DNA from: a virus
Virus record (IMG/VR): IMGVR_UViG_3300045740_000189
Span: 1 to 23,429 of that record
Length of the DNA: 23,429 bases
Strand: one strand, 5' to 3'
Each line of letters begins with the position of its first letter. The stretch's first letter is position 1. Below, piece by piece: positions 3,805 through 17,427 of the stretch. The translations under genes and the position numbers were made by a program. The notes beneath the pieces were generated by a model, which was not told the DNA's origin, did not search any database, and saw only the letters and a program-made list of their open reading frames with translations.

Positions 3805-3942
3805 TTATGGGAAGTGTAATTTGGACCTAAATATATCAATGTACCATTCTTCATCAGGATGATTTTGATGATATTTAAGTAGTGCTGGAATTGCTGTGAT
3901 AATTCTACCAAGTCCACCATCTAATGCTATAATTGTAGTCAT
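3805..3942 (-). pseudogene. Truncated duplicate of the GT9-like glycosyltransferase gene start
   Basis: A 45-residue frame starting at ATG 3942 overlaps the preceding glycosyltransferase stop as ATGA. Its first part copies the N-terminus of the intact gene at 8330-9265: 23 of 31 aligned residues are identical from I-I-x-x-D-G-G through E-W-Y, and the DNA is visibly similar too. Homology then ends abruptly and the frame stops at 3805. A second short frame starts inside it (MKNGTLIYLGPNYTSHN...), also ending soon. The stretch 3661-3804 shows further short open fragments (for example HYVLQDGQRAHCAWDR) but no complete gene. It reads as the decayed end of a once longer cassette. Confidence 0.7.
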
Positions 3943-4706
3943 TTATAATTAATGGTAAAAGTTTCTTTTTGCTCTTTTTTCATATAAGTATCGTCAATGA
4001 TTTTCTTCCAGTCTATGACAGGACTAATGTGATTTGCATCACAATGAGTAGACCAACCTGGCATCGGAGAAATCAAATACTTTTGTTGTTGTTGAAGTTC
4101 CCAAAATTTATCATAATCCTTTGAGAAATGAAATCCTTCTTCTTCCTTTACTCCATGAATAGAATGTTTTTTCTGTATTTCCAAATCTTCTATTAAGGTC
4201 TTATATTTACACGCAAAGGTATTAGTCGTTGCTGGAACTGCTCTCCAATGAGAACTTGAAGTTGTAAAGATTTCACATAAGTATCCAGCATTAATAAAAA
4301 AATCAAAATCATAAAGAGTTACATAATGAGAACCAATCGTAAATGCTTCTAATAATACTTCACTCCACCCTGGACGATGTAGATAATCATCTTCTAAAAA
4401 GTAAATAATTTGCTCATCATCAAAGTTTTTAGATTGAATAATATCTAATGTTTTTAGAAAACTATCAGTTTCACTTCCACATTTTATAATCTCTACATTC
4501 TTTTCTTGCGATAAAAAGGTTTTATTAATACTACCATAAAACTCATCATAAACAATGGTGTAGTTTACGAGGTCTGGATTTAAAGTATTTTTAAAGTTCT
4601 CAAAGACTTTAATCTTATTAAACCATTGAGGTCTTGTGCGGTCTGGAAGTTGTTGTAGTTTTGAATAATAACAATGTCTTAAAAATACTTCAATTGGTTT
4701 TTTCAT
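3939..4706 (-). CDS. GT-A type glycosyltransferase (EDDYLH motif)
   Basis: A protein of 255 residues from ATG 4706; an in-frame GTG at 4715 is possible, but AGGAG next to the ATG favours the shorter form. Residues 100-110, IIYFLEDDYLH, form the hydrophobic strand plus acidic motif expected at the metal and sugar-nucleotide site of GT-A enzymes. A later aspartate pair (YDFDFF near 132-137) may take part. The C-terminal section includes W-S-T-H-C and ends basic. The same EDDYLH occurs in the neighbour at 4961-5776, so the two are probably distant paralogues adding different sugars. Donor and acceptor cannot be told. It is the last intact gene of the cassette. Confidence 0.75.
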   Translation of the reverse strand: MKKPIEVFLRHCYYSKLQQLPDRTRPQWFNKIKVFENFKNTLNPDLVNYTIVYDEFYGSINKTFLSQEKNVEIIKCGSETDSFLKTLDIIQSKNFDDEQIIYFLEDDYLHRPGWSEVLLEAFTIGSHYVTLYDFDFFINAGYLCEIFTTSSSHWRAVPATTNTFACKYKTLIEDLEIQKKHSIHGVKEEEGFHFSKDYDKFWELQQQQKYLISPMPGWSTHCDANHISPVIDWKKIIDDTYMKKEQKETFTINYK

Positions 4707-4968
4707 TCTCCTCACTTAAAAGTTTAGATGACTCAATTTCCATTTCATCCCAATTCATATCTTTAATTCCTTCATAACCTAATTTTTCTAAAAGTTTAGC
4801 ATATCCTCTTGGAACAACCTCAAGACAAAAATAATCTTTTACCTCTTCATACAAAGGATTATCAGTATCAATTCTCAATTGCAACATATCAAGAATTTTT
4901 TTTACATCTTCAAGTGTCTCAATTTTATCAACAGTTAATTGATATCTTCTTGTCGGTTGTTTATCCAT
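4690..4968 (-). CDS. Hypothetical 92-residue protein in the glycan cassette
   Basis: A small, charged, mostly helical protein (for example VDKIETLEDVKKILDMLQLRID) with no motif I recognise. It overlaps the upstream gene by 8 bases and the downstream gene by about 17, so translation of the three is probably coupled. Its fixed place between two glycosyltransferases suggests a partner or regulatory role, but nothing in the sequence shows this. Confidence 0.75.
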   Translation of the reverse strand: MDKQPTRRYQLTVDKIETLEDVKKILDMLQLRIDTDNPLYEEVKDYFCLEVVPRGYAKLLEKLGYEGIKDMNWDEMEIESSKLLSEENEKTN

Positions 4969-5776
4969 AAGTAACTTTCAATGATTTAAGTTTTGAATAT
5001 TTATTCCACCAGTTTATATGATTTATAAAAGGATCTCTTTGTTCTTCAAACTGAATATGAAGTGCAAGAGAAGGGATTGGATTTATACGAATTACATAAG
5101 TTTTCCAAATTTCTCCAACTGTATTTCCTTCATCAACAAGATTTTCTGGATTCTCTCCTGTAGCAAGAGGTTTATATTTTGATGCAAGTTTCTCAAATAC
5201 TTCCCAGTGGTCTTGAAATACTTTTGGAGTCGTCATCATTGTAAATGTTGTCCATATACCCTCTTTCCAGTGTCTTGTAGGAGTCCTGAATACTCTTCCA
5301 GGATATAATTGATATAAAACATAATCTTCTGGGTTGTCAAATGGATACAAGCATATCTCTTTCTTTATATAATAATATCTTTTCATATGAATATAAGTCC
5401 GAAGCATTTCAGCAATTGCTTCTGGACAATGCAGATAGTCATCCTCTACAGAATAAACTAAATCAGCAGTAGAATTCTTACAATACTCAAACTGCTTTAA
5501 TCCACTATAATTAAATCCTGGAATTTCTAAATCTATAAGTTGATATGAGTGTTTAGAATGTTTGAAGATATTATGAATTTTTGAAATACAATCTTCTGTG
5601 CAATGGTCATTTAAGATAATGAAAGAAATTTTTACATCTTTTACAAGATTTGTGGAGTTAATTAATGAAGACAAACAACCAATTATCAAGTATTTTTTGG
5701 GAATATCAATGTATCTTGGTTTATCACCATGAATGTTTTTACCATCATGAATTCTTAGAATGATTTCAAGTTTCAT
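4961..5776 (-). CDS. GT-A type glycosyltransferase (EDDYLH motif)
   Basis: A 271-residue soluble protein. Residues 48-60 (VKISFIILNDHCT) resemble the first nucleotide-binding strand and aspartate loop of family-2-like GT-A enzymes. ADLVYSVEDDYLH at 104-116 is the acidic metal-binding strand. Two conserved-looking aromatic segments follow (GRVFRTPTRHWKEGIW and NPIPSLALHIQFEEQRDP). It probably transfers a sugar to the glycan built by this operon. The ATG overlaps the carbamoyltransferase stop as ATGA. The motif is shared with the 255-residue enzyme two genes on. Confidence 0.78.
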   Translation of the reverse strand: MKLEIILRIHDGKNIHGDKPRYIDIPKKYLIIGCLSSLINSTNLVKDVKISFIILNDHCTEDCISKIHNIFKHSKHSYQLIDLEIPGFNYSGLKQFEYCKNSTADLVYSVEDDYLHCPEAIAEMLRTYIHMKRYYYIKKEICLYPFDNPEDYVLYQLYPGRVFRTPTRHWKEGIWTTFTMMTTPKVFQDHWEVFEKLASKYKPLATGENPENLVDEGNTVGEIWKTYVIRINPIPSLALHIQFEEQRDPFINHINWWNKYSKLKSLKVTYG

Positions 5777-7323
5777 TGATATAATAACTTTTTATTTTTA
5801 ATAGTTACTAGAGTTTCTATCTCAGGAAGATAAAGATATTCTATCATACTATTCTTAAGAGTATATATTGCATGTTCAAATGTCTCAACTAATGGTTCTC
5901 CACCAAGATTAAAACTAGTATTTAATACTATAGGAACTTCAGTTTTCTCAAAGAAACTAGAAATTAAATTATAAAAATGCTGATTTTGTTCTTGAGTAAC
6001 TGTTTGTATTCTACAGGTATTATCTGCATGAATAATTGCAGGAACTTGTGATATTGCATTTTCATAAGCATCCATCGCATATTGCATATAAGGACTTTCT
6101 TTCAATGAAAGCATATTAAACCATTTGGATGCTTCTTCTTTTAAAATACTTCCCGCAAATGGACGAAAATTTTCTCTTCTTTTAATTTGATTTACAATAT
6201 CTTTTCCTTTTGGATTTCTTGGATCAAAGAGTAATGAACGATTTCCAAGTGCTCTTTGTCCTGCTTCACTTTTACCTTGAAATAAAGCAATAACATTTTG
6301 TTCAAGTAATAAATTCACAATATCTTCATAGGATACTTTTTGAGTTTCTAGGCCATTTAAATCATAAGTTGTTTCTTGATGACCAATATAAACATTTTGG
6401 AGTGGTTGAATTGGTGGATTATTTCTCGTTTCTTGAATGTAATGATAATATGCAGCACCAATACTAATGCCGGCATCAAAGCAAATTGGATCAATATAAA
6501 GATTAATGTCTTTTAGATTCTTAAGATAATGATAGTTTGCAACACAATTTAAACCATAACCACCAGAGATGACTACATTTTTAATTCCAGTTTCTTCTGT
6601 ATATTTTTGAATAAGATTTAAAATGTGAGTTTGTGTTTCTTGTTGAAGATTATATGACTCATCAACTCTTTCTTTCCATTCTTTTGTATTGTATGGATAC
6701 TGAAGTTTTTCCTTATGGTCATAATATTGGCCAAGTCCCATCACTTTTCCTGCGTCCAAAAAAGAAAAATTAAATTTTTCGCATTTTTCTTCAAATTTTT
6801 TTCCTATAGACTTATTAGTGCTTATAATTTTATTATTTTTTATTTTTTTATTAATATTTGTGCTATAAAAACTTTGGTGTAATATTTTAATATTCTTTGT
6901 CAGTTTATCAATAAAGTATACTGTTGATGATTCATTTACCAATGAATCATCAACATTTAATTGTTTTCCTGTACCATCGACAATTATAACAATAGATTTA
7001 TCATGATTGGAATTATAAAATCCGCAGAATGCATGATATAAATGATGCTCATTAAATAATTCGCAATGATATTTTTTTATCAACTTCTTATGATTTTTTT
7101 TTATGTCACTACTAAAAATAAAATCAATATTATAATCTGCTATAGAATTTAAATATATTTTTTTTACTTCTAAGTTTAACATATTTTGCATTATTTTTTC
7201 AATTCTTGCATCATGTTTTACTCTAGAAAATCTTTCCTCCATTTGATATGAATTAATAATACCATCATCAATAATACATATTGAGCTATCGTGGCATAAT
7301 AATGTCATTGAAATTATTTTCAT
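5773..7323 (-). CDS. O-carbamoyltransferase, NodU/CmcH family
   Basis: A protein of 516 residues from ATG 7323, whose A is shared with the upstream TAA stop (TAATG); a GTG at 7332 would add three. Family hallmarks are the His cluster HHLYHA (93-98), VDGTGK (115-120), SGGYGLN (253-259), DAGISIGAA (283-291), the long motif FQGKSEAGQRALGNRSLLFDPR (348-369), RRENFRPFAGS (382-392) and NTSFNLGGEPLVET (468-481). The N-terminal Kae1-like and C-terminal YrdC-like parts are both present, so the enzyme should use carbamoyl phosphate and ATP to carbamoylate a sugar hydroxyl. Residues 157-180 form an unusual Asn/Lys/Ile-rich stretch encoded by very AT-rich DNA. Length is slightly below the family norm. 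Confidence 0.9.
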   Translation of the reverse strand: MKIISMTLLCHDSSICIIDDGIINSYQMEERFSRVKHDARIEKIMQNMLNLEVKKIYLNSIADYNIDFIFSSDIKKNHKKLIKKYHCELFNEHHLYHAFCGFYNSNHDKSIVIIVDGTGKQLNVDDSLVNESSTVYFIDKLTKNIKILHQSFYSTNINKKIKNNKIISTNKSIGKKFEEKCEKFNFSFLDAGKVMGLGQYYDHKEKLQYPYNTKEWKERVDESYNLQQETQTHILNLIQKYTEETGIKNVVISGGYGLNCVANYHYLKNLKDINLYIDPICFDAGISIGAAYYHYIQETRNNPPIQPLQNVYIGHQETTYDLNGLETQKVSYEDIVNLLLEQNVIALFQGKSEAGQRALGNRSLLFDPRNPKGKDIVNQIKRRENFRPFAGSILKEEASKWFNMLSLKESPYMQYAMDAYENAISQVPAIIHADNTCRIQTVTQEQNQHFYNLISSFFEKTEVPIVLNTSFNLGGEPLVETFEHAIYTLKNSMIEYLYLPEIETLVTIKNKKLLYQ

Positions 7324-8333
7324 TAATAACACATTACTGCTGATTTTGAAACTTTTTTAAGTGGTAAATTTTCTAAACTTTGGAGAAAATCAACCCATTC
7401 TTGTGTTTTTCTTTCCCAATTAAAGAAATAATCCACATATTCTTTTTGCCTTTTCAAGTAATCTTGTGTTTCTTTATTATTTACAATTTCTATTGCTTTT
7501 TTGAGATGTTGATAAAATCTTTCTTTATGTGAAATAATTTTTTCATGATAATCATACATCATTGTCCAATTAGATGCAGTTTCTGGAAGACATCCATAAT
7601 TTGGATGAACACACAAACATCCAGCACTCATTGCTTCTAAAAGTGAGAGACAAAATGTTTCTACCATAATATTTGGATATGCAAAAATATGAGAGGATGC
7701 TAATGATTTTCTAAGTTCTTCGTTAGGGAGATACCCAATGTTGTGAATTTTTGAATTACTTTCCAATCTCTGATATAAATCCCCATTCTCATAGTCATCT
7801 TGCCATCTGTTCATTCCATAAATTGACCAAGAAGAGTGAACTTTAAGTTCTATATTATTATATTCTTCACATAATTTTTCAAAAACATCTATCAATAGAG
7901 AAAGTCCTCTTTGTGGATTTGAATGATGGACTAATACGATTTTATTTGTTGGTTTTTCCTGAAGTTCTATTGGGTCTAGTGCATATTTTATCACCGCACA
8001 ATGACTTCTTGGAATATTATATCGATTTATCCAATTTTCCATTTGGTGGTGGGAAATAAAAACAATTTTATGAAAATTATTCCAACCACCATTCTCAAGA
8101 GGTTTATTATTTTTAACTCCAAGATACCAATGCATTTCTTCACATTGTTTCGGATCCAAATGCGACCAATAAATCCTTATCTTTGTTTTATCTAAATCTG
8201 AAATGTTAAATCTATCAGTAATAATTTGAAATTTATTTAAGAGATCTTGTGGAAGTCGTTTTTGTAATTCATACTTAATAATTTCTGTTCCACCTTTTGA
8301 AGAATTACTAAAATTGTCAAATTCAATGGTCAT
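7323..8333 (-). CDS. GT4-like (GT-B) glycosyltransferase
   Basis: A 336-residue GT-B enzyme. The N-terminal acceptor domain carries the glycine loop KGGTE at 13-17. The C-terminal donor domain carries VETFCLSLLEAMSAGCLCVHP (224-244), the E-x7-E motif (E225, E233) of retaining family-4 transferases, followed by YGCLPET. It would transfer a sugar from a nucleotide-sugar donor, identity unknown. The start overlaps the upstream gene as ATGA and the stop is shared with the carbamoyltransferase start as TAATG, so it sits in the middle of a coupled operon. Confidence 0.87.
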   Translation of the reverse strand: MTIEFDNFSNSSKGGTEIIKYELQKRLPQDLLNKFQIITDRFNISDLDKTKIRIYWSHLDPKQCEEMHWYLGVKNNKPLENGGWNNFHKIVFISHHQMENWINRYNIPRSHCAVIKYALDPIELQEKPTNKIVLVHHSNPQRGLSLLIDVFEKLCEEYNNIELKVHSSWSIYGMNRWQDDYENGDLYQRLESNSKIHNIGYLPNEELRKSLASSHIFAYPNIMVETFCLSLLEAMSAGCLCVHPNYGCLPETASNWTMMYDYHEKIISHKERFYQHLKKAIEIVNNKETQDYLKRQKEYVDYFFNWERKTQEWVDFLQSLENLPLKKVSKSAVMCY

Positions 8334-9265
8334 ACCACAATACTCTCTATCTCTAAGTCTTCTTTAATTTTCTCATAAACATTCAAAATTTCATCATCAG
8401 TGTATTCAATACACTCTTTATTCAATCTTTCTGCAAGGTTAGATTGAAGACTGGAAATTCTCATTGGAGAATAAACTGGTTTCTTTCTTTCAATAATTCT
8501 AAAATAATCTGGATATGACATATTTACAGAGTCAGTTCCTCCCATAATCACACATCCTTGAGTTCCTGTTGCTCTTGCAATATGCTGCCCCACACTATCA
8601 CAACCAATTAGATAGTCTACTTGAGAAATTACACCCATCCATTCACGAATGTGAAGATCGTGTTCTGGAACATAAACAAATCTATTTTCCGTAGGAAGAA
8701 GGTGTCGATATCCCATGTAAATAATATTATAATCCTCTGCAAGGAGTTCACAAAGTTGATTGAACATACTTTCAGGTATTGATCTCAGAGAATCATCATA
8801 GACTCCAAGAGGACAAACTTGTGCTGTAGATCCGTAAGGATTAAACACTATAGTTTGTTCTTTACCTTGTGCTTCATATGCTTTATAAATGACTTCTTGG
8901 CCTTTGCGAATTTCAGCATGTGAAAGATTCAAGGTTTCATAATTTAAGTCACCATGCTCTTCAGTTTCATTAATGATTTCATCAAATGCTTCTGCAAGTG
9001 AAATTTTACCTTTATAAAAATTAGGAAGACGATAAGGCTCTGGAGAAATTATTTTATCTGCTTTCATAAAATAATTTTCCCAAACATCTTTAGTATCTGG
9101 ATTAAAAGTTCTTTTTTGAAGTTCCGGAATACCTAAAGGAACATAGTCCCATCCAATGATTGATAGATACCATTCTTTATTTGGATGATTTTTATGATAC
9201 TTAAGAAGTGCTGGAAGTGCTGTAATAACTCTTCCAATACCACCGTCAATGTTAATAATTTTCAT
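8330..9265 (-). CDS. GT9-like (heptosyltransferase-related) glycosyltransferase
   Basis: A 311-residue protein. The N-terminus, INIDGGIGRVITALPALLKY, is the glycine-rich opening strand and helix of ADP-heptose:LPS heptosyltransferases. The donor half shows FNPYGST (141-147), REWMGVISQVDYLIGCDSVGQHIARATGT (207-235), then MGGTDSVNMSYP (241-252), the usual GT9 order. It probably acts on a heptose-like or other hexose donor. Starting two bases after the sulfotransferase stop, it belongs to the same operon. A truncated copy of its start survives at 3805-3942. Confidence 0.85.
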   Translation of the reverse strand: MKIINIDGGIGRVITALPALLKYHKNHPNKEWYLSIIGWDYVPLGIPELQKRTFNPDTKDVWENYFMKADKIISPEPYRLPNFYKGKISLAEAFDEIINETEEHGDLNYETLNLSHAEIRKGQEVIYKAYEAQGKEQTIVFNPYGSTAQVCPLGVYDDSLRSIPESMFNQLCELLAEDYNIIYMGYRHLLPTENRFVYVPEHDLHIREWMGVISQVDYLIGCDSVGQHIARATGTQGCVIMGGTDSVNMSYPDYFRIIERKKPVYSPMRISSLQSNLAERLNKECIEYTDDEILNVYEKIKEDLEIESIVV

Positions 9266-9266
9266 A

Positions 9267-10100
9267 TTACTTATATTGAATAAACTTTTTATCTAATTTT
9301 TCAATAATATCTATATCTGGTTTATGCCCTGCTCTCCAAAACTCCATATTCATTTCTTTATACTTTTGAACGATTTCTGGAGGTAAAACATTTCTTGGTG
9401 GTTTATATTCTACTTTTTTCTTGATAGTATGAAGGTCTTTAAGATTACATGCTCTATCAAAATTTTCATTTGAATATTCTACATTATCAAAATCATGAGA
9501 ATAATAAGGTCTTTCAAGAAACTCATATACTTTTCTCATTGTTTTTTCTGGTTGTTTACACAGATTCTCATATTCAATAAAATGAATCATTTCTGGATTG
9601 AGTGCATAACCTTCTTGGAGTAATATCCAAGGTTTGGCAACAAGACCATCATTTTTATCCATCATTCCATCACATCTTGCAAACACATTATTATTGTGCT
9701 CTGTGAGTGTTTTAGTGTAAAATGGATTTTTAGAAGAAATTACTTCAAAAGAATTCAGAATAGAAACAATATCTCTTACAAGACATAGAATTTTTGTATA
9801 AGGAAAGAGTGCTTTGAGAAAATTTGTTTTCTTTGTCCAACCTCTTGAACTGTCGAAGATGACTGATTTTTCTATGTGTTGGTAGTAACCATCAAACATT
9901 CCATACATTAGATTTTTTCTTTGCTCTTCGGTGGTCGTGAGATTACTCTCGGCACCTGTAATCACATCAATTGCATTTCCAGTTAGTGCTTCTACTGGAG
10001 AGGCAATATCAGCATAAAAGTCTGGATTCTGACGAAGAATTCCCGACAGCAGTGTAGAACCGGACCTTGGAAGTCCGGAGATAAAATAATATTGTTTCAT
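9267..10100 (-). CDS. Sulfotransferase (PAPS-dependent)
   Basis: A 277-residue protein with ISGLPRSGSTLLSGIL at 7-22, the 5'-phosphosulfate binding loop (R12, S13, G14, S15, T16), and KILCLVRDIVSILNS at 103-117, the 3'-phosphate site (R109, S113). These are the two signatures of PAPS-dependent sulfotransferases (Sulfotransfer_3 type). It lacks a transmembrane segment, so it is cytoplasmic. In this cassette the acceptor is most likely a sugar of the phage-made glycan, though a protein tyrosine cannot be excluded. It follows the oxygenase gene by only six bases. Confidence 0.88.
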   Translation of the reverse strand: MKQYYFISGLPRSGSTLLSGILRQNPDFYADIASPVEALTGNAIDVITGAESNLTTTEEQRKNLMYGMFDGYYQHIEKSVIFDSSRGWTKKTNFLKALFPYTKILCLVRDIVSILNSFEVISSKNPFYTKTLTEHNNNVFARCDGMMDKNDGLVAKPWILLQEGYALNPEMIHFIEYENLCKQPEKTMRKVYEFLERPYYSHDFDNVEYSNENFDRACNLKDLHTIKKKVEYKPPRNVLPPEIVQKYKEMNMEFWRAGHKPDIDIIEKLDKKFIQYK

Positions 10101-10106
10101 AAATTA

Positions 10107-10730
10107 TCAATTCTCAGGTTGCGGATAATTAATCGAACCTTTGGGAAGTGCAATAATATTAAACGAAATTGAAATTCTTTCTTCATCATGGTCATTAGTC
10201 TCGACCGAATGAGGAAGATAAGAAGGGAAGAGAATGATATTACCTTCTACTGGTTCAATACGAATACTTTCTGCAGTGAATTGATTTTTTTGTGAAGTCA
10301 GTGAGCAACCTTTCCACATTTTATTGATTGCTGGATTTTGTAGAACCAACTTTCCACTACCTTCTGGTGTTGAGAGATAAAAGACACCAGAGAATACGTC
10401 ACCATGCACATGCTCAGAATTCATGCACTGACGACTATCATTCACATTTAACCAAGCTTCAGTGAGTGCAATGTCACAATCAATAAAATCAAGGTCAGCA
10501 ACTGCCTTGAATGCCATTTGACAGATATACTCAAAGAGGGGACGAAATTCTTCTACTCTTTGAAGTGTATCTGGTGATTGATATCCTGCAATATTTGATA
10601 TCGGGGTTTCTTTAGTTGGATTTTTTTCTTTATATTCTTTAACTGTAGTGAGGAAGACTTCCTGGTGCTCTTCAAAGTCAGGGTACTCTGATTGCCACAG
10701 GGGAACAGAATAAATAGGCATTAAATTCAT
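10107..10730 (-). CDS. 2OG-Fe(II) oxygenase
   Basis: A 207-residue double-stranded beta-helix dioxygenase of the small family common in cyanophages. SEHVHGDVFSGVFYLSTPEGSGKL (105-128) carries the proximal iron ligands, probably H109-x-D111 with H107 nearby. LPHSVETN (172-179) carries the distal His174, and R185 in EERISISFN is placed to bind the 2-oxoglutarate carboxylate. It would hydroxylate an unknown substrate with loss of CO2 and succinate formation. It opens the glycan cassette, so the substrate may be a sugar or the modified virion protein. ATG 10730 is used here; ATG 10721 is also possible. Confidence 0.88.
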   Translation of the reverse strand: MNLMPIYSVPLWQSEYPDFEEHQEVFLTTVKEYKEKNPTKETPISNIAGYQSPDTLQRVEEFRPLFEYICQMAFKAVADLDFIDCDIALTEAWLNVNDSRQCMNSEHVHGDVFSGVFYLSTPEGSGKLVLQNPAINKMWKGCSLTSQKNQFTAESIRIEPVEGNIILFPSYLPHSVETNDHDEERISISFNIIALPKGSINYPQPEN

Positions 10731-10756
10731 AGTTATTTGAGCAAGTTTTTTTTAAT

Positions 10757-10786
10757 ATTTTAGCATATTTTAGCACATTTAATCAA
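10757..10786 (-). promoter_or_regulatory. Possible sigma70-type promoter of the glycan cassette
   Basis: TTGATT (10786-10781), an 18-base spacer and TAAAAT (10762-10757) preceded by TGC form a plausible extended -10 promoter. The TGCTAAAAT unit occurs twice ten bases apart (the other at 10775-10767). It lies 27 bases upstream of the ATG at 10730. The area is so AT-rich that chance matches are likely. Confidence 0.4.
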
Positions 10787-10800
10787 ATATTTGATTAAAT
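10777..10800. repeat. Perfect 24-bp AT-rich palindrome
   Basis: ATTTAATCAAAT is followed directly by its exact reverse complement. It sits between the cysteine-rich gene and the glycan cassette and overlaps the candidate -35 box. It could be an operator for a dimeric protein or a weak transcript-end hairpin; no T-tract follows on the minus strand. Confidence 0.6.
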
Positions 10801-10834
10801 TTAAAGATTGATCTTGAAATAAAAAATAAAATAC

Positions 10835-11563
10835 TTATGTGAGAGTGCATCTAATTGTGCGAACGCAGGTGGGGGTAGTTTTTCCAAATTTAGTACAAGT
10901 AGCTCCAGTTGCAAAATTGACAGCTGATCCTGCATAGAAGTAGTTTGCACTAGTACTCCAGTACCATGTTGCTGAAGTAGTATCCCAGTAAGTTCTGCAA
11001 GAATATCCTGGATTTTGTAATTGTCCGATATTTGGTACAAACCATCCACAAGATCCCATACAACTATTTGCAACAGTGACGGCATCGCTGCTAGTATACC
11101 AAGTTCTACTTACTTCTGTGCAAGAGGGTGCAACAAACCATTTGCACGTAGATGGACCACAGCAAATAAAAAAACCTTTACAATCTGTAACATTTCCAAT
11201 AGATGTGATTCCTATATTTGTGCAGGATAAGCAAGTAGGTGCGTTGCAGTCACAACTATTAGCACCCCAAGCGTCTCTTTTTTTTGCTTCCAATTGTTCA
11301 GTTAATTTCCACCTTCCTGTCGGAACTGTTCTAGTACATAAAGTTTCTTTACATGAGCAACAAATATCACAACAAGGACATGCACAAAAACTACAACGAC
11401 ACCCTAAATTCAAAGGATAAGAAGCACACGCAGAGCAAACATTCGTGGAACTAAAACAAGTTGTTGTACTAATTCCTAATGTTGCTTGTCTTGTAGGTCC
11501 AACTACACTTGCATTTCCTGGATATGATCTTTTGTTAATATTGGTGGGACGAAATGGTGCCAT
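10835..11563 (-). CDS. Cysteine-rich protein with DUF1566/Lcl-like C-terminus
   Basis: A 242-residue protein with 28 cysteines, 13 of them within residues 36-76 (spacings such as C55-x-C57-x2-C60-x-C62-x-C64-C65). From about 168 on it resembles DUF1566/Lcl domains, which have a C-type-lectin-like fold: GWFVPNIGQLQN (173-184) in place of WRLPTxxEL, YWSTSANYFYAGSAVNF (201-217) in place of YWSST...A..V.F, and CVRTIRC near the end. Being last in the tail-fibre module, it may be a receptor-binding tip or a metal-binding virion protein. The start follows the upstream stop by three bases. The Cys cluster could bind metal or form disulfides after assembly. Confidence 0.82.
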   Translation of the reverse strand: MAPFRPTNINKRSYPGNASVVGPTRQATLGISTTTCFSSTNVCSACASYPLNLGCRCSFCACPCCDICCSCKETLCTRTVPTGRWKLTEQLEAKKRDAWGANSCDCNAPTCLSCTNIGITSIGNVTDCKGFFICCGPSTCKWFVAPSCTEVSRTWYTSSDAVTVANSCMGSCGWFVPNIGQLQNPGYSCRTYWDTTSATWYWSTSANYFYAGSAVNFATGATCTKFGKTTPTCVRTIRCTLT

Positions 11564-11566
11564 AAA

Positions 11567-12133
11567 TTATACTCCAGTTGATGAAATTCCCACTGATTCA
11601 TTAAATACTTCTTTTATAAGTCCTCTGACCATTCCTTCTAAATCACGAACTCTCCAAAGAATACGATCTTCGTAAACTCTTGGTTGATCAAAATCACTAT
11701 CTGGACGACCTTCTGGACTGATTGGAAAAAATACATCTTTTGGATGTGCATAAAGACTTGGTAGATCACGAAGTCTTTGACGATACATTTCCCACTCACG
11801 TAAATTTAAATCCTCTGGAGCATCTGCTGCCATTGTCCAATCAGATTCAGAAAGAAGGAGATTTCTTTCTTTACGAATTCTTCCCCAAAGTTCTTCTTCT
11901 GAAATATCTTCTACAACAAATGAAAGATTTTCAGAATCCCAAGAAACTCTTTGATATTCTTGATCAAAATCTGGAATCGTGTATGGTCCAGTAAAACCTG
12001 CTTCTGCAATTTCTTCTTCAGTAAAGGTAGAAGAATCTGTACGACTTCTTCCACCATTTAAACGAATTTTATGAGGAAGTAATTGTGGTTCTTGCCCTTG
12101 ATAGGAATAAAGTTTTGTGTTGTCTACTATCAT
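11567..12133 (-). CDS. Tail (fibre) assembly chaperone-like protein
   Basis: A 188-residue protein. Residues 86-125 (beginning IRKERNLLLSESDWTM and including WEMYRQRLRDLPS) match the pattern R..RN.LL..SDWT...D...W..YRQ.LRDLP of phage tail assembly chaperones (Phage_tail_APC type). The N-terminal part (LLPHKIRLNGGRSRT) is typical of cyanophage versions. A coiled-coil-like C-terminus (DRILWRVRDLEGMVRGLIKEVF) may bind a fibre. It probably helps fold or assemble one of the neighbouring fibres and is not itself a main virion component. AAGGAG ten bases before the ATG supports the start. Confidence 0.8.
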   Translation of the reverse strand: MIVDNTKLYSYQGQEPQLLPHKIRLNGGRSRTDSSTFTEEEIAEAGFTGPYTIPDFDQEYQRVSWDSENLSFVVEDISEEELWGRIRKERNLLLSESDWTMAADAPEDLNLREWEMYRQRLRDLPSLYAHPKDVFFPISPEGRPDSDFDQPRVYEDRILWRVRDLEGMVRGLIKEVFNESVGISSTGV

Positions 12134-12528: not shown

Positions 12529-12559
12529 GAGATTATCTTAGAATTTTACATATTTATTT

Positions 12560-12567
12560 TATTTATA
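12560..12567 (-). promoter_or_regulatory. T4-type late promoter TATAAATA
   Basis: A perfect TATAAATA on the minus strand immediately after the stop at 12568 and 32 bases upstream of the ATG at 12528. Position and match are as in T4-like late genes, which are read by host polymerase with a phage late sigma factor and clamp. Confidence 0.75.
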
Positions 12568-12813
12568 TCAAGAACGATACTCATCAAATGAAAGTATTTT
12601 TTTAAATGCAATTGATTTACCTTCTGTTGCTATTGATAAATTCGTTAATCCACTACCATTACCAGAAAAACTACCTGCAGTTATAATACCCGTTACATTA
12701 ATTCCTCCAGAACCAGAAATGACTTGACCTGATGGGATGATGGCACCCTTAGATAATTCAGGTGCTCCATTATCATCTTTGTTAACAATTCTATCTACTT
12801 TAATCTGTGGCAT
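12568..12813 (-). CDS. Mini-fibre paralogue 3 (81 residues)
   Basis: An 81-residue protein of the three-member tandem family at 12568-13277. It has an N-terminal (I/V)KVD-R-I adaptor (MPQIKVDRIV), a K/S-G-x3-PS segment, the fibre block GGINVTGIITAGSFSGNGSGLTNLSIA, and the tail GKSIAFKKIL. Unlike its siblings it ends with an extra polar stretch (SFDEYRS). It is probably a short trimeric fibre or fibre-associated virion protein. The start lies one base past the upstream stop. Confidence 0.75.
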   Translation of the reverse strand: MPQIKVDRIVNKDDNGAPELSKGAIIPSGQVISGSGGINVTGIITAGSFSGNGSGLTNLSIATEGKSIAFKKILSFDEYRS

Positions 12814-12814
12814 T

Positions 12815-13039
12815 TTAGATTATGAGTGAAAGTGCAATTGATTTACCTTGTTTTGCTATTGATAAATTAGTTAATCCACTACCATTTCCAGCAAAAGAAG
12901 TGGCAGTAACTATACCAGAAACACTAATTCCACCTGCGCCAGTGATAATTCCTGATGAAGGAACTGATGCTCCATATGAGATTACAATTTGATTTGTTGT
13001 TGATCCTTGAATTGAATCTACTTGTATTTGCGATGACAT
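12815..13039 (-). CDS. Mini-fibre paralogue 2 (74 residues)
   Basis: A 74-residue sibling: MSSQIQVDSI adaptor, then GGISVSGIVTATSFAGNGSGLTNLSIAKQGKSIALSLII. The stretch FAGNGSGLTNLSIA is almost identical to the 81-residue copy (FSGNGSGLTNLSIA). The C-terminus ends abruptly in a hydrophobic LSLII. No strong Shine-Dalgarno is visible. It is likely read through from the late box at 13695-13702. Confidence 0.75.
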   Translation of the reverse strand: MSSQIQVDSIQGSTTNQIVISYGASVPSSGIITGAGGISVSGIVTATSFAGNGSGLTNLSIAKQGKSIALSLII

Positions 13040-13049
13040 GAGGATTGTG

Positions 13050-13277
13050 TTAAGTAATTAAACTAAATGCAATGGATTTCGAAATAGTAACTTCATTTTC
13101 TATAAATCCAGTAATTTCAGAACCATTTCCTATAAATGAAGAAGCAGTGACAATTCCAGTCAAATTAACATTCGGTGTTATTATAACTTGATCTGAAGGA
13201 ACACTAACACCTTTTGTAAATTCAACAGGACCAGTTCCTGTCGTGTTGGTAATCGTATTTACTCTTAAAGACGACAT
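13050..13277 (-). CDS. Mini-fibre paralogue 1 (75 residues)
   Basis: A 75-residue, most divergent member: MSSLRVNTI adaptor, GTGPVEFTKGVSVPS, NVNLTGIVTASSFIGNGSEITGF, and tail ISKSIAFSLIT. The start is well supported by AAGGAGG seven bases upstream of the ATG. It shares the hydrophobic C-terminal KSIAxSxI ending with its siblings, a short motif that may be an assembly or anchoring signal. Confidence 0.77.
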   Translation of the reverse strand: MSSLRVNTITNTTGTGPVEFTKGVSVPSDQVIITPNVNLTGIVTASSFIGNGSEITGFIENEVTISKSIAFSLIT

Positions 13278-14871: not shown

Positions 14872-17427
14872 TTATCTAGTCAAAGGATCTTGATTCCAAG
14901 TATCCCTAGATCCATCTGCTTTCTCATTGATCCATATTCTAACGAATCCATCTCCAGAGTTTCCACCTTGTCTTGTTTTGTTATTAGCAACAGATGCATC
15001 TTCTCTAGCAAGTCCAGAACCACCTCCACCACCTCCTCCAGCGTTTGCTCCACCACCACCATAAAATCCTGCTCCTCCACCACCTCCCGTGGCAAAAATT
15101 TGTCTAGTTCCTTCTTGCTGCCTTTCAAATTTAGCATTACCCCCATTATTTCTACCACCAAAACCAACTCTAATTGGCCTTGTGGTTTGTGTAGGAGTAT
15201 TTGGAGGAGGTGTAATTGATGATGTTTGAATTAAATTTCCATTATTGTCTATAAGAAAATTATTTTTAGTAGCACTATCATATCTTTCTCTTCTCAAATT
15301 TGCAGGAAGTTGAACTATTGCATTTGGTGTGTCATGCAGTCTTCTGTTTATACTTGATACAGTAGCAGCAGCTGAGAACAAAGAATCTGAAATATCTGGA
15401 TCAGACTGAACTATAAATTTATTAGCATTAGTATTACTTTCCACATAACTAATATCTCTTATAGAATTTTGTTTCGCATAAGTAGAACAAAGAGCTTGTT
15501 TTGCTTGTGCTGGAGTCCACAATAAATTTGTAGGTATTGTATTTGCCATATTATATTCCAACAGACATGCTAATATACCAGCAGCAGTTGGAGTAGCTGC
15601 ACTAGTTCCACTAAATGGACCCCATGCCCACCCATCATCATTTCCCCAATTCGGATTGTATGTAGAAAATTGTCCTCCACCGGGAGAACAAACACTTGTT
15701 GCGGGACCTTTATTACTATAAGATTCTAATTGATCTTTTGAATATGTATTTAATGCCGAAACATTTATTGCATTATGTACTCCTTCGGGTCCTATTGGTC
15801 GATTGTAATAAAACCTTCCTGTTGAACCAGAACTAAGTATCATGTAGGAATTAGGACTTCCCGATGATAAATCAAAAGAAACAGAATCTGAATAAACTTG
15901 GTAGTAATTATCATAGTCTATTTGCTTATTTACAGAAGAATTCCATGGTGCTCTGGTATGACACCCATTACCCATGGCACATGTAACATGAACTCCGGAG
16001 TTTACGGTTGCTTCAATATCAGATAATAATGAAACTATTGTTTCATCTTCTTTAAGAAAATTACCATTATGATGGACAGACCACAATCCCTTTATATTTT
16101 TTTCTCCAGTTACTGGATAAAATGAAACGAATCCTTGAGATGCAACTGAAATTGAAATTGCTTCTCTAATTAAAGACTGTTGATAAGATTCTGCAAATTT
16201 AAATCTCGTATTAAAAGTTGAATCTTGTGTTTTAATCAAATAATATGTTTGTCCATTTACAAGACCATTTATTGAAGATCCTTCATATACAACTCTATCT
16301 CCTGTTCTCAGATTATTATCTGCAAAGGGATATGAAAATAGGACAGAATTATTTTCTAAATTATTATTGAAATTGCTAATAAGAATATTATCTATACCAG
16401 TTTCAATATAAAATGGATTTAATTTGTATTCTTCTAAAACATCAATATCCCAACCCTTTTCTGGACGACTTATGACAGTTCCCCTATATCTAATTGATTC
16501 TATACTATTAATACCAATTCTACTAAGATGAAAATTTTGAAATTCTAATATTGCAACTGTTGGATTTATATGTCCGTAAGAATTTTTTTGAGAACTGTTT
16601 ACTTTCTTTCGATGAAATTGTCTGATATATTCCAAAGATTCAAAAAAAGTAGCTTTATTTGGACTATCATCATAAGATCCATATACAACGTATAAATTTG
16701 CATCCTTGGCAAACCCACTTCTAATACCACCAGCGCAACTTAAAGTGCCCGAAGCATGATCCAATAAACATTTATCTGGATAATTTGCATATAAATTTGA
16801 GATTCCATTTATTGTTGTTTTTTCAGTGACATTTTGTTCCCAGTTATATGGAATTATTCTAGAACTAGTCCCAAATCTATTTTTAAAATCAACATGTGAT
16901 TTTGATAAAGATAATGTTTGTCCGAGATTATCTGGATCCACCTCTAGAGTTATCACATCAACATTCATTCCTGTCCAAAAACTACTATAAGAACCAGTAA
17001 CTTGTTTTGTATCAGAAAAACCTCCACCCCAATTAGAGGGTGTATTTTCACCAGCACATCTCAACAAACTATGATTATCCATAGATGAAATATTTGGTGG
17101 GGTTGAAGGAGATTTCCAATATTTTCTATTTGGTCCACTATAAAAATAATCTTCGGGTTTTACAGAAGCTGGAAACATTTTTGGCAAATCTGAAAGTTTT
17201 TTAACATCCAAAACTCTCTGATCTTCTTTCAATTTCTCTGCTTCTTCGTCAGAAAGATAATAAATTGTGTTTGGACCGGTTTCTAGTCTACGAGAACACT
17301 CAACTTCTCTATTTGGAATACACTCGGAGGAACATTCACATTCTTCCATATCGGCATAGAATGATTCGTTAAAACCAATATCTTTTAAAGTTACAATGTA
17401 TCTTGAAGTTTCTGATTTAATTTCCAC
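14872..17427 (-). CDS. Subtilisin-like (S8) serine protease with glycine-rich tail
   Basis: An 851-residue protein. The start is GTG, supported by GGAGG eight bases upstream. Residues 8-80 look like an S8 propeptide (YIVTLKD ... YLSDEEAEKLKEDQRVLDV) with an inserted Cys cluster (C30, 32, 36, 44). The catalytic core carries H224 in DHASGTLSCAGG, the oxyanion N487 in CAMGNG and S609 in FSGTSAATPTAAG; the triad aspartate is probably D157 or D164 (MNVDVITLEVD). Residues 345-435 form an insertion like virion repeat domains (GDRVVYEG...ING..NGQTYYLI). Residues 750-832 are glycine-rich and end GDGFVRIWI. No signal peptide is seen. It is likely a virion protease acting on the host surface or on neighbouring fibres. 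Confidence 0.85.
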   Translation of the reverse strand: MEIKSETSRYIVTLKDIGFNESFYADMEECECSSECIPNREVECSRRLETGPNTIYYLSDEEAEKLKEDQRVLDVKKLSDLPKMFPASVKPEDYFYSGPNRKYWKSPSTPPNISSMDNHSLLRCAGENTPSNWGGGFSDTKQVTGSYSSFWTGMNVDVITLEVDPDNLGQTLSLSKSHVDFKNRFGTSSRIIPYNWEQNVTEKTTINGISNLYANYPDKCLLDHASGTLSCAGGIRSGFAKDANLYVVYGSYDDSPNKATFFESLEYIRQFHRKKVNSSQKNSYGHINPTVAILEFQNFHLSRIGINSIESIRYRGTVISRPEKGWDIDVLEEYKLNPFYIETGIDNILISNFNNNLENNSVLFSYPFADNNLRTGDRVVYEGSSINGLVNGQTYYLIKTQDSTFNTRFKFAESYQQSLIREAISISVASQGFVSFYPVTGEKNIKGLWSVHHNGNFLKEDETIVSLLSDIEATVNSGVHVTCAMGNGCHTRAPWNSSVNKQIDYDNYYQVYSDSVSFDLSSGSPNSYMILSSGSTGRFYYNRPIGPEGVHNAINVSALNTYSKDQLESYSNKGPATSVCSPGGGQFSTYNPNWGNDDGWAWGPFSGTSAATPTAAGILACLLEYNMANTIPTNLLWTPAQAKQALCSTYAKQNSIRDISYVESNTNANKFIVQSDPDISDSLFSAAATVSSINRRLHDTPNAIVQLPANLRRERYDSATKNNFLIDNNGNLIQTSSITPPPNTPTQTTRPIRVGFGGRNNGGNAKFERQQEGTRQIFATGGGGGAGFYGGGGANAGGGGGGGSGLAREDASVANNKTRQGGNSGDGFVRIWINEKADGSRDTWNQDPLTR

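Follow-up and report, generated by a model that had tools for sequence, protein, structure and literature searches.

The window (the whole stretch of 23,429 nucleotides analyzed here) carries a minus-strand operon, running from position 10730 to 3939, of seven enzyme-like genes separated from their neighbors by gaps of only -10 to +6 nucleotides. This is the arrangement that the first-pass annotation had described, except that its count of seven omitted an eighth open reading frame within the operon, s92. The genes flanking this cassette are indeed of the tail-fiber type, as had also been proposed, but the gene directly upstream encodes a lectin-like adhesin rather than a generic fiber. In order of transcription, the features are as follows.

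12551-12566, minus strand: two ATAAATA late-promoter boxes of the fiber operon that ends in the adhesin gene
11567-12133, minus strand: gene for a protein resembling tail-fiber assembly chaperones, preceding the adhesin gene (PF16778, 9e-14; phrog_4912, 3e-19)
10835-11563, minus strand: Cys-rich C-type-lectin/Lcl_C-like adhesin with 28 Cys residues, encoded immediately ahead of the cassette (Lcl_C match below cut-off, E 0.002)
10731-10834, minus strand: spacer with a remnant of the 3' end of a reverse transcriptase (RT) from a diversity-generating retroelement (DGR) and a sigma-70-like extended -10 (TATGCTAAAAT)
10107-10730, minus strand: 2OG-Fe(II) oxygenase, first gene of the cassette (Pfam 2OG-FeII_Oxy_5, PF13759, 5e-22; NCBIfam TIGR02466, 5.7e-29)
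9267-10100, minus strand: PAPS-type sulfotransferase (Pfam Sulfotransfer_3, 3e-19)
8330-9265, minus strand: GT9-like (heptosyltransferase-fold) glycosyltransferase (AF2 model, pLDDT 86; Foldseek)
7323-8333, minus strand: GT4-type (GT-B) glycosyltransferase (Glycos_transf_1, PF00534, 1.2e-15; phrog_2170, 6.5e-41)
5773-7332, minus strand: NodU/TobZ-type O-carbamoyltransferase (Carbam_trans_C, PF16861, 7e-58; Carbam_trans_N, PF02543, 4e-13)
4961-5776, minus strand: GTA1, predicted GT-A fold glycosyltransferase with an EDDY motif (AF2 pLDDT 86.7; Foldseek SpsA, E 1.2e-7)
4690-4968, minus strand: s92, small conserved cassette protein (phrog_9119, 8e-5), with an ATAAATA late-type box ahead of it at 5004-4998
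3939-4715, minus strand: GTA2, GT-A type glycosyltransferase homologous to GTA1 (hhalign A1 versus A7, 96.6%, E 5e-10; EDDYLH motif)

The virus and its relatives are T4-like cyanophages, whose hosts are aquatic cyanobacteria, as is evident from the cyanomyovirus homology of its fibers, from late boxes of the form NATAAATA (the cyanophage late-promoter motif was defined in PMC2984593) and from psbA, which is carried by three relatives. The general proposal of an enzymatic decoration cassette adjoining tail genes in a cyanophage is supported. A megablast search of the cassette against phage genomes gave no match, and the repeat scan reported no collagen-like repeats.

The family of the 2OG oxygenase, in which an HxD/E...H facial triad is expected, shows HxH...H (H107, H109 and H174), and residue 111 is variable. 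The sulfotransferase retains both the 5'-PSB and the 3'-PB site, with its RSGxT motif and R109/S117 invariant, and its best relatives in the PDB are protein-tyrosine sulfotransferases (E 6e-12). In the carbamoyltransferase, both domains exceed the Pfam cut-off, as do the Pfam matches of the oxygenase, the sulfotransferase and the GT4 protein, the enzyme matches the Nol-like carbamoyltransferase family phrog_1601 (3e-128), and alignment with solved carbamoyltransferases shows HHLxH, D119 and D286 to be invariant; we take these to be the His and Asp residues of the metal/carbamoyladenylate site, with the same role as in TobZ. Carbamoyl transfer is its predicted activity.

PDB sequence searches with the GT9-like protein, GTA1 and GTA2 gave nothing meaningful, and their folds were therefore predicted. 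For the GT9-like protein, the AlphaFold model suggests the GT-B fold of GT9 enzymes: its top 30 PDB matches are all WaaC, WaaF, TibC or another GT9 structure, and include both LPS heptosyltransferases and TibC, which heptosylates a protein. Genes for ADP-heptose supply are essentially absent near cassettes of the sulfotransferase type (L025 has one partial match and L077 a set; the window itself is a fragment). The protein itself has no significant Pfam match, and 13/22 family members match Glyco_transf_9 (PF01075) weakly (best E 0.0034); since the PF01075 cut-off was missed, we call it GT9-like and do not file it as a member of GT9. The GTA1 model resembles SpsA and other GT-A enzymes, and the fold of GTA2 is assigned by profile homology to GTA1 only; both carry EDDY as a DXD-like motif. 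Neither has a significant Pfam match of its own, and GT2 models were matched in a few members of their families. Relatives of GTA2 were found in Synechococcus phage S-SRM01 and on bacterial chromosomes, where its neighbors (RsfS, NUDIX and ketoacyl synthase genes or, in Prochlorococcus, those for GuaA and a PBP) offered no functional clue.

Comparison with relatives showed a modular island, as opposed to a pathway of constant composition. The 2OG gene leads in almost all of them, the sulfotransferase gene usually comes second, and those for GTA2 and the GT9-like protein usually come last; between them, genes for GT4, the carbamoyltransferase, GTA1 and further enzymes are present in some relatives and missing from others. 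Sulfate- and carbamoyl-transferring enzymes do occur together, as the first-pass annotation had remarked, both here and in about a dozen relatives. Its idea that the seven enzymes can build and decorate one glycan, however, is not supported as it stands, given this mix-and-match content: a carbamoyltransferase is present in a minority of cassettes (3/19 sulfotransferase-seeded loci), and relatives add a tryptophan halogenase, members of an Asp/Arg hydroxylase family, radical SAM enzymes and more 2OG oxygenases, that is, families known mainly from the modification of amino acid side chains.

What does stay constant is the company of the adhesin. In 27 of 29 cassettes, the 2OG gene is immediately preceded by the adhesin gene, alone or together with a template repeat (TR) and an RT gene; the figure for control viral carbamoyltransferase loci of another kind is 0 of 78. 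Conversely, a scan seeded with the adhesin found 2OG, sulfotransferase or GTA genes on the same strand in 32/34 contigs, representing about 29 distinct viruses. By sequence, the adhesin of the window is a homologue of the DGR variable protein of one of these relatives, L007 (blastp, E 8e-31). In some relatives the retroelement is complete, with an RT matching RVT_1, a C-type-lectin target and TR/variable repeat (VR) pairs of 124 to 134 nucleotides in which 94 of 98 substitutions fall at template adenines. The order in some of them is adhesin with variable repeat, template repeat and RT, with the RT stop codon overlapping the 2OG start codon, so that a single transcript probably encodes both the apparatus for adhesin mutagenesis and the tailoring enzymes. 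Each of the 10 RTs at 64% identity or higher is directly followed by a cassette gene, usually with a 4-nucleotide overlap; among the remaining 68 RT loci, any gene of the cassette families was nearby in only one.

A search of the entire window recovered the adhesin homologue but neither an RT nor a template repeat. The window is thus a derived copy that has kept the adhesin and the enzymes and has lost the template repeat and RT, and the DGR is, in the window, a matter of history. Its trace is left in the spacer upstream of the 2OG gene, which aligns to the RT tail of L007 (0 of 1,000 local shuffles aligned as well) and contains a motif that is conserved at this position in relatives. This also bears on the host-type promoter that had been suggested for the cassette. 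A sigma-70-like site does exist there, but it is one of 58 found versus 59 expected, and the conserved motif represents the lost 3' end of the RT gene; a promoter may overlap the end of this remnant. CTAAATATGGTAnAAT, which lies ahead of the 2OG gene and could be taken for a conserved promoter of host type, was rejected as such because it corresponds to the last RT codons in relatives. The early action on the host surface that was to follow from such a promoter finds no independent support.

Possible signs of late expression were seen further downstream. A late-type box lies 5 to 45 nucleotides upstream of s92 in 12 of 14 relatives (0/14 in a control interval). Part of this signal can be put down to the W-N/D-K-Y codons that end the GTA1 gene, but the box also occurs in five loci with a different preceding gene (L008, L053, L060, L071 and L073). 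CTAAATA, considered as a late box, showed no enrichment. No terminator was predicted between the late fiber operon and the cassette.

Since the enzyme set is nearly always found directly behind one adhesin family in the relatives, its probable role is to decorate the portion of the virion that makes contact with the host. Our preferred reading, to which we give roughly even chances, is that T4-like cyanophages carry the cassette as a modular tailoring island linked to one family of C-type-lectin-fold tail adhesins, and that its enzymes modify the adhesin or the neighboring fibers. Of the targets first proposed (fibers, virion surface or host LPS), the 27/29 and 32/34 linkage favors the virion adhesin over LPS. 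The analysis shows gene content, folds, gene order, linkage and the DGR of the relatives, whereas substrate, chemistry and timing are inferred. Ahead of virion assembly or in its course, soluble cytosolic enzymes would act on the adhesin or neighboring fiber proteins: the 2OG enzyme would hydroxylate a side chain or a sugar, the GT-A, GT4 and GT9-like enzymes would attach sugars, and the sulfotransferase and carbamoyltransferase would cap these, with the sulfotransferase alternatively acting on tyrosine. The exchangeable middle genes would vary this chemical coat in parallel with the sequence variation of the binding site.

Tailoring of the adhesin would be in keeping with the protein-tyrosine-like sulfotransferase match, the late box of s92, the lack of a predicted terminator between the fiber operon and the cassette, the side-chain-modifying enzyme families that relatives add and the absence of transmembrane segments from the cassette proteins. 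Solubility does not decide the target, however, because LPS-core glycosyltransferases are cytosolic, too. Counting against an adhesin target, the putative substrates are read from linkage, and adhesin and enzymes may be linked because both concern the same host receptor. In the stretches examined of the cultured cyanophages S-SSM7, P-SSM2, S-SRM01 and S-SKS1, related enzymes are not accompanied by the adhesin, and such enzymes can therefore serve other purposes.

One such purpose might be the remodeling of LPS or a capsule-like polysaccharide on the surface of the infected host, which could, for instance, prevent superinfection or keep progeny from sticking to debris, with the adhesin binding that same glycan. 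The GT9 fold is that of LPS heptosyltransferases, the Pseudomonas LPS core contains a carbamoylated heptose made by WapO (PMC8005017), clusters of the P-SSM2/S-SSM7 type join GT9 and carbamoyltransferase genes with sugar-nucleotide genes, and a possible sigma-70-like site precedes the 2OG gene. Heptose and Kdo, however, are missing from most analyzed cyanobacterial LPS (PMC4515613); the conserved promoter motif coincides with a remnant of RT coding sequence; and the cassette has no recognized flippase, polymerase or lipid-carrier enzyme. Together with the strict adhesin/DGR linkage, this makes host glycan remodeling unlikely in our view.

We consider it improbable that the locus is a hypervariable cargo island, i.e., a set of accessory genes without joint function, possibly genome filler, gathered at a recombination hot spot next to fiber genes. 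Ever since they were first described, cyanophage sugar clusters have been read either as "stuffer DNA," an idea raised by Sullivan et al., or as LPS genes (PMC3037559), and the content of the middle of the cassette varies strongly. The refuting condition named in the first-pass annotation, independent variation of the genes, holds in part: the middle genes vary, whereas the frame of adhesin, 2OG oxygenase, sulfotransferase, GTA2 and GT9-like protein mostly does not. Intact catalytic motifs, same-strand translational coupling and the adhesin linkage (32/34) likewise speak against filler. Finally, some phages modify DNA bases with TET-like enzymes and carbamoyltransferases, but a hypermodification pathway in which the 2OG enzyme hydroxylates bases that the transferases then glycosylate or carbamoylate is highly improbable here, given a 2OG protein of PF13759/TIGR02466 and not of the TET/JBP type, the misfit of a sulfotransferase and a GT9-like enzyme, and the position amid tail genes.

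Returning to the adhesin as target, we tentatively suggest two layers of diversification, in which the retroelement hypermutates the binding site and co-transcribed, exchangeable enzymes hydroxylate, sulfate, glycosylate, carbamoylate and, in relatives, perhaps halogenate the same adhesin. If so, these phages would alter their receptor-binding tip in chemistry as well as in sequence. Phage receptor-binding proteins have seldom been examined for chemical modification, and the near-strict link of tailoring enzymes to one DGR-type adhesin allows a direct test, namely, whether this adhesin is sulfated, glycosylated or carbamoylated. If it is decorated, the hosts open to a major group of aquatic viruses would be determined by enzymatic modification in addition to sequence, and the cassette would supply new tools for sulfation, glycosylation and carbamoylation.

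Several known systems share parts of this arrangement. The LPS-type clusters of cyanophages (P-SSM2, S-SSM7 and S-CAM1; T4-GC 302-308) likewise place a GT9-like gene next to a NodU-type carbamoyltransferase gene behind tail-fiber genes, and a GT9 gene was detected near the carbamoyltransferase gene, usually just upstream, in 67/80 viral carbamoyltransferase loci; these clusters, however, have sugar-nucleotide (heptose-type) genes of their own, lack an adhesin/DGR of the present family and mostly lack a sulfotransferase. In the cultured Synechococcus phage S-SRM01, homologues of the sulfotransferase and GTA2 genes are adjacent with overlapping start and stop codons, whereas no adhesin, RT or NodU-type carbamoyltransferase was detected in the 20 kb examined. 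With phage DGRs of the Bordetella BPP-1 type, the relatives share the RT, the adenine-directed TR/VR pair and the C-type-lectin-like target, but in them the RT precedes a tailoring-enzyme operon, and the window has neither RT nor TR; neither "glycosyl" nor "sulfotransferase" occurs in the main text of a worldwide DGR survey from 2021 (PMC8144416). Pseudomonas WaaC/WaaF and WapO, which yield 7-O-carbamoyl heptose in the LPS core (PMC8005017), combine the same GT9 and carbamoyltransferase chemistry, whereas the present cassette is phage borne, adds sulfation and 2OG oxidation and faces hosts whose LPS is generally without heptose. TibC-type protein O-heptosyltransferases, which resemble the phage GT9-like protein at the level of the fold only (about 10% identity), have an adhesin protein as their target.

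The tailoring enzymes of this 23.4-kb fragment of an IMG/VR virus record are encoded by an operon of eight minus-strand ORFs extending from 10730 to 3939, with spacings of -10 to +6 nt among the first seven and an overlap between the eighth and its neighbor. An ORF map and domain searches bore out all seven enzymes named in the first-pass annotation, which had overlooked an additional small ORF, s92. In the transcript, the order from 5' to 3' is as follows:

Gene 1, minus strand, 2OG-Fe(II) oxygenase (2OG; PF13759)
Gene 2, minus strand, sulfotransferase (PF13469)
Gene 3, minus strand, GT9-like protein
Gene 4, minus strand, GT4 (PF00534)
Gene 5, minus strand, NodU/TobZ-type carbamoyltransferase (PF02543 and PF16861)
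Gene 6, minus strand, GTA1, a GT-A type protein
Gene 7, 4968-4690, minus strand, s92, a small conserved protein
Gene 8, minus strand, GTA2, a GT-A type protein

The carbamoyltransferase gene also contains a perfect 15-bp inverted repeat (6922-6955). The GT9-like protein has no Pfam match of its own, and members of its family match weakly at best; the 30 best PDB matches of its AlphaFold2 model (pLDDT 86) are the heptosyltransferases WaaC, WaaF, and TibC and another GT9 structure (E values of 5e-10 to 6e-7). The GTA1 model (pLDDT 87) matches SpsA and further GT-A enzymes, and GTA2 is homologous to GTA1 (profile comparison, 96.6%), with an EDDY motif common to both. The PAPS motifs of the sulfotransferase are intact, as are, in alignment with solved carbamoyltransferases, the HHLxH motif and two Asp residues of the carbamoyltransferase. 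The iron site of 2OG calls for caution, since its family has HxH...H in place of the usual HxD...H.

Nucleotide comparison with phage genomes revealed no close match among cultured phages. Relatives of the 1257-aa fiber ORF were found among the fibers of 361 Synechococcus phage records and of other cyanophages, the fiber genes are preceded by NATAAATA late boxes, as defined for cyanomyoviruses (PMC2984593), and psbA is present on the contigs of three cassette-bearing relatives (L014, L056, and L061); on these grounds, we assign the window to a T4-like cyanophage lineage. An 851-aa protein of the fiber region (14872-17427) has a subtilase domain (Peptidase_S8, 4e-13), and several fiber-like ORFs of 74 to 81 aa (12568-13277), with a common GNGSGLTNL-type motif and a GKSIA... 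C terminus, are possibly degenerate or domain-sized pieces of fiber.

Relatives of the cassette were gathered by IMG/VR scans seeded with four cassette proteins, after which gene maps were drawn. In the recurring frame, 2OG stands at the start, the sulfotransferase is mostly second, and GTA2 and a GT9 are mostly last, while the middle holds shifting sets of GT4, carbamoyltransferase, GTA1, s92, and other genes, including a second sulfotransferase (Sulfotransfer_2), several 2OG oxygenases, an Asp/Arg-hydroxylase-family protein, a tryptophan-halogenase-like protein, a radical-SAM protein, and DXD-type glycosyltransferases. The pairing of sulfate with carbamoyl groups, previously singled out as unusual, was seen again, but since a carbamoyltransferase occurs in only 3 of 19 sulfotransferase-seeded and 2 of 11 GTA2-seeded loci, it recurs without being the rule. 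Two relatives (L071, 6640-8351; L056, 8284-10004) have a second carbamoyltransferase split into two neighboring ORFs, with the C-terminal-type half ahead of the N-terminal half. Chromosomal homologs of GTA2 (L161 to L190; about 35 to 49% identity) occur in Chlamydiae, Verrucomicrobia, and one Prochlorococcus single-cell genome, with housekeeping genes around both loci looked at.

Sequence comparison places this island of predicted soluble tailoring enzymes almost always beside a lectin-fold adhesin. Of 29 cassettes, 27 have a lectin-like protein, with or without a template repeat (TR) and reverse transcriptase (RT), adjoining 2OG on its upstream side, compared with none of the 78 carbamoyltransferase loci used as controls. 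An adhesin-seeded scan found same-strand cassette genes in 32 of 34 contigs (approximately 29 viruses once near-identical contigs are merged); some 15 of these contigs were new relative to earlier scans, and all except one of those carry cassette genes. In several relatives, the ORF immediately upstream of 2OG encodes an RT (YMDD; RVT_1 up to 2.5e-16), preceded by a TR of 124 to 134 nt and, farther off, by a variable repeat (VR) at the end of the C-type-lectin-like protein. Across four TR/VR pairs, 94 of 98 differences fall on template adenines, and these elements are genuine diversity-generating retroelements (DGRs). Intact DGRs, translationally coupled to the cassette and directly upstream of it, were located in four relatives:

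L007, 6537-8393
L055, 2654-4523
L014, 7533-9379
L016, 7527-9379

In an RT-seeded scan, each of the 10 RTs at 64% identity or higher is immediately followed by a cassette gene (nine 2OG, one GT9), the RT stop and the next start commonly overlapping by 4 nt; among more distant RT loci, a cassette-family gene lies nearby in only 1 of 68. At L211 (7242-9738), whose RT is a distant relative (40%), a sulfotransferase of the cassette family likewise follows the RT, possibly an independent DGR-sulfotransferase link.

In the window, the protein encoded at 11563-10835 belongs to the adhesin family (E value of 8e-31 against L007's variable protein), neither an RT nor a TR was found, and the 104 nt separating the adhesin from 2OG (10731-10834) give a better alignment to the L007 RT 3' end than did any of 1,000 shuffles. 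Together, these observations identify the window as an island of DGR origin whose retroelement is gone, leaving the adhesin and an RT-tail remnant. The host-type promoter proposed in the first-pass annotation loses ground here: the sigma-70-like site upstream of 2OG sits inside the RT remnant, and such sites show no excess in the region (58 found versus 59 expected). Nevertheless, a promoter would be consistent with the survival of the TATGnTAnAAT piece once the RT was lost. Of 14 relatives, 12 have an ATAAATA box ahead of s92, whereas a control interval yielded none in the 14; the remaining cassette genes almost never have such a box. In the window and most relatives the s92 box overlaps GTA1 codons, but it is also present at five loci where GTA1 does not precede s92. 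Given this box, and with no terminator predicted between the late fiber operon and 2OG, it is plausible that at least some of the cassette is expressed late, via its own box or read-through; early expression is conceivable.

As for the target, a protein is favored by the linkage to RT and adhesin, the leading position of 2OG, the side-chain enzymes of relatives, and the sulfotransferase, whose nearest solved relatives are protein-tyrosine sulfotransferases; we give the adhesin or fibers roughly even odds. The cassette enzymes would then modify the adhesin or its neighbors in the cytosol, ahead of assembly. The main rival, remodeling of the host surface, is weakened: heptose is generally absent from cyanobacterial LPS (PMC4515613), and no export or polymerization genes were recognized.

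NodU-type carbamoyltransferases are frequent in viruses. A GT9-like gene lies near the carbamoyltransferase, mostly immediately upstream, in 67 of the 80 best viral loci (L081 to L160), only three of which have a sulfotransferase; the two genes form a conserved module. Two cyanophage papers describe a carbamoyltransferase as a pyrimidine-synthesis enzyme (PMC9146016, PMC10436341), a label that is probably wrong for the annotated enzyme of MS29, since its sequence marks it as a NodU-type protein. Sugar clusters of cyanophages, carbamoyltransferases of phages, and phage DGRs have each been described before; among the open-access papers searched, itself weak evidence of absence, we found no report of the three joined in one adhesin-bound island. 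Many of the viral loci also have heptose-type sugar-nucleotide genes akin to P-SSM2 T4-GC 304-308 and represent the known cyanophage LPS-type cluster (PMC3037559). That cluster resembles the window in its GT9-carbamoyltransferase chemistry, which recalls the carbamoylated heptose of Pseudomonas LPS (PMC8005017), but differs from it in lacking the lectin-like adhesin.
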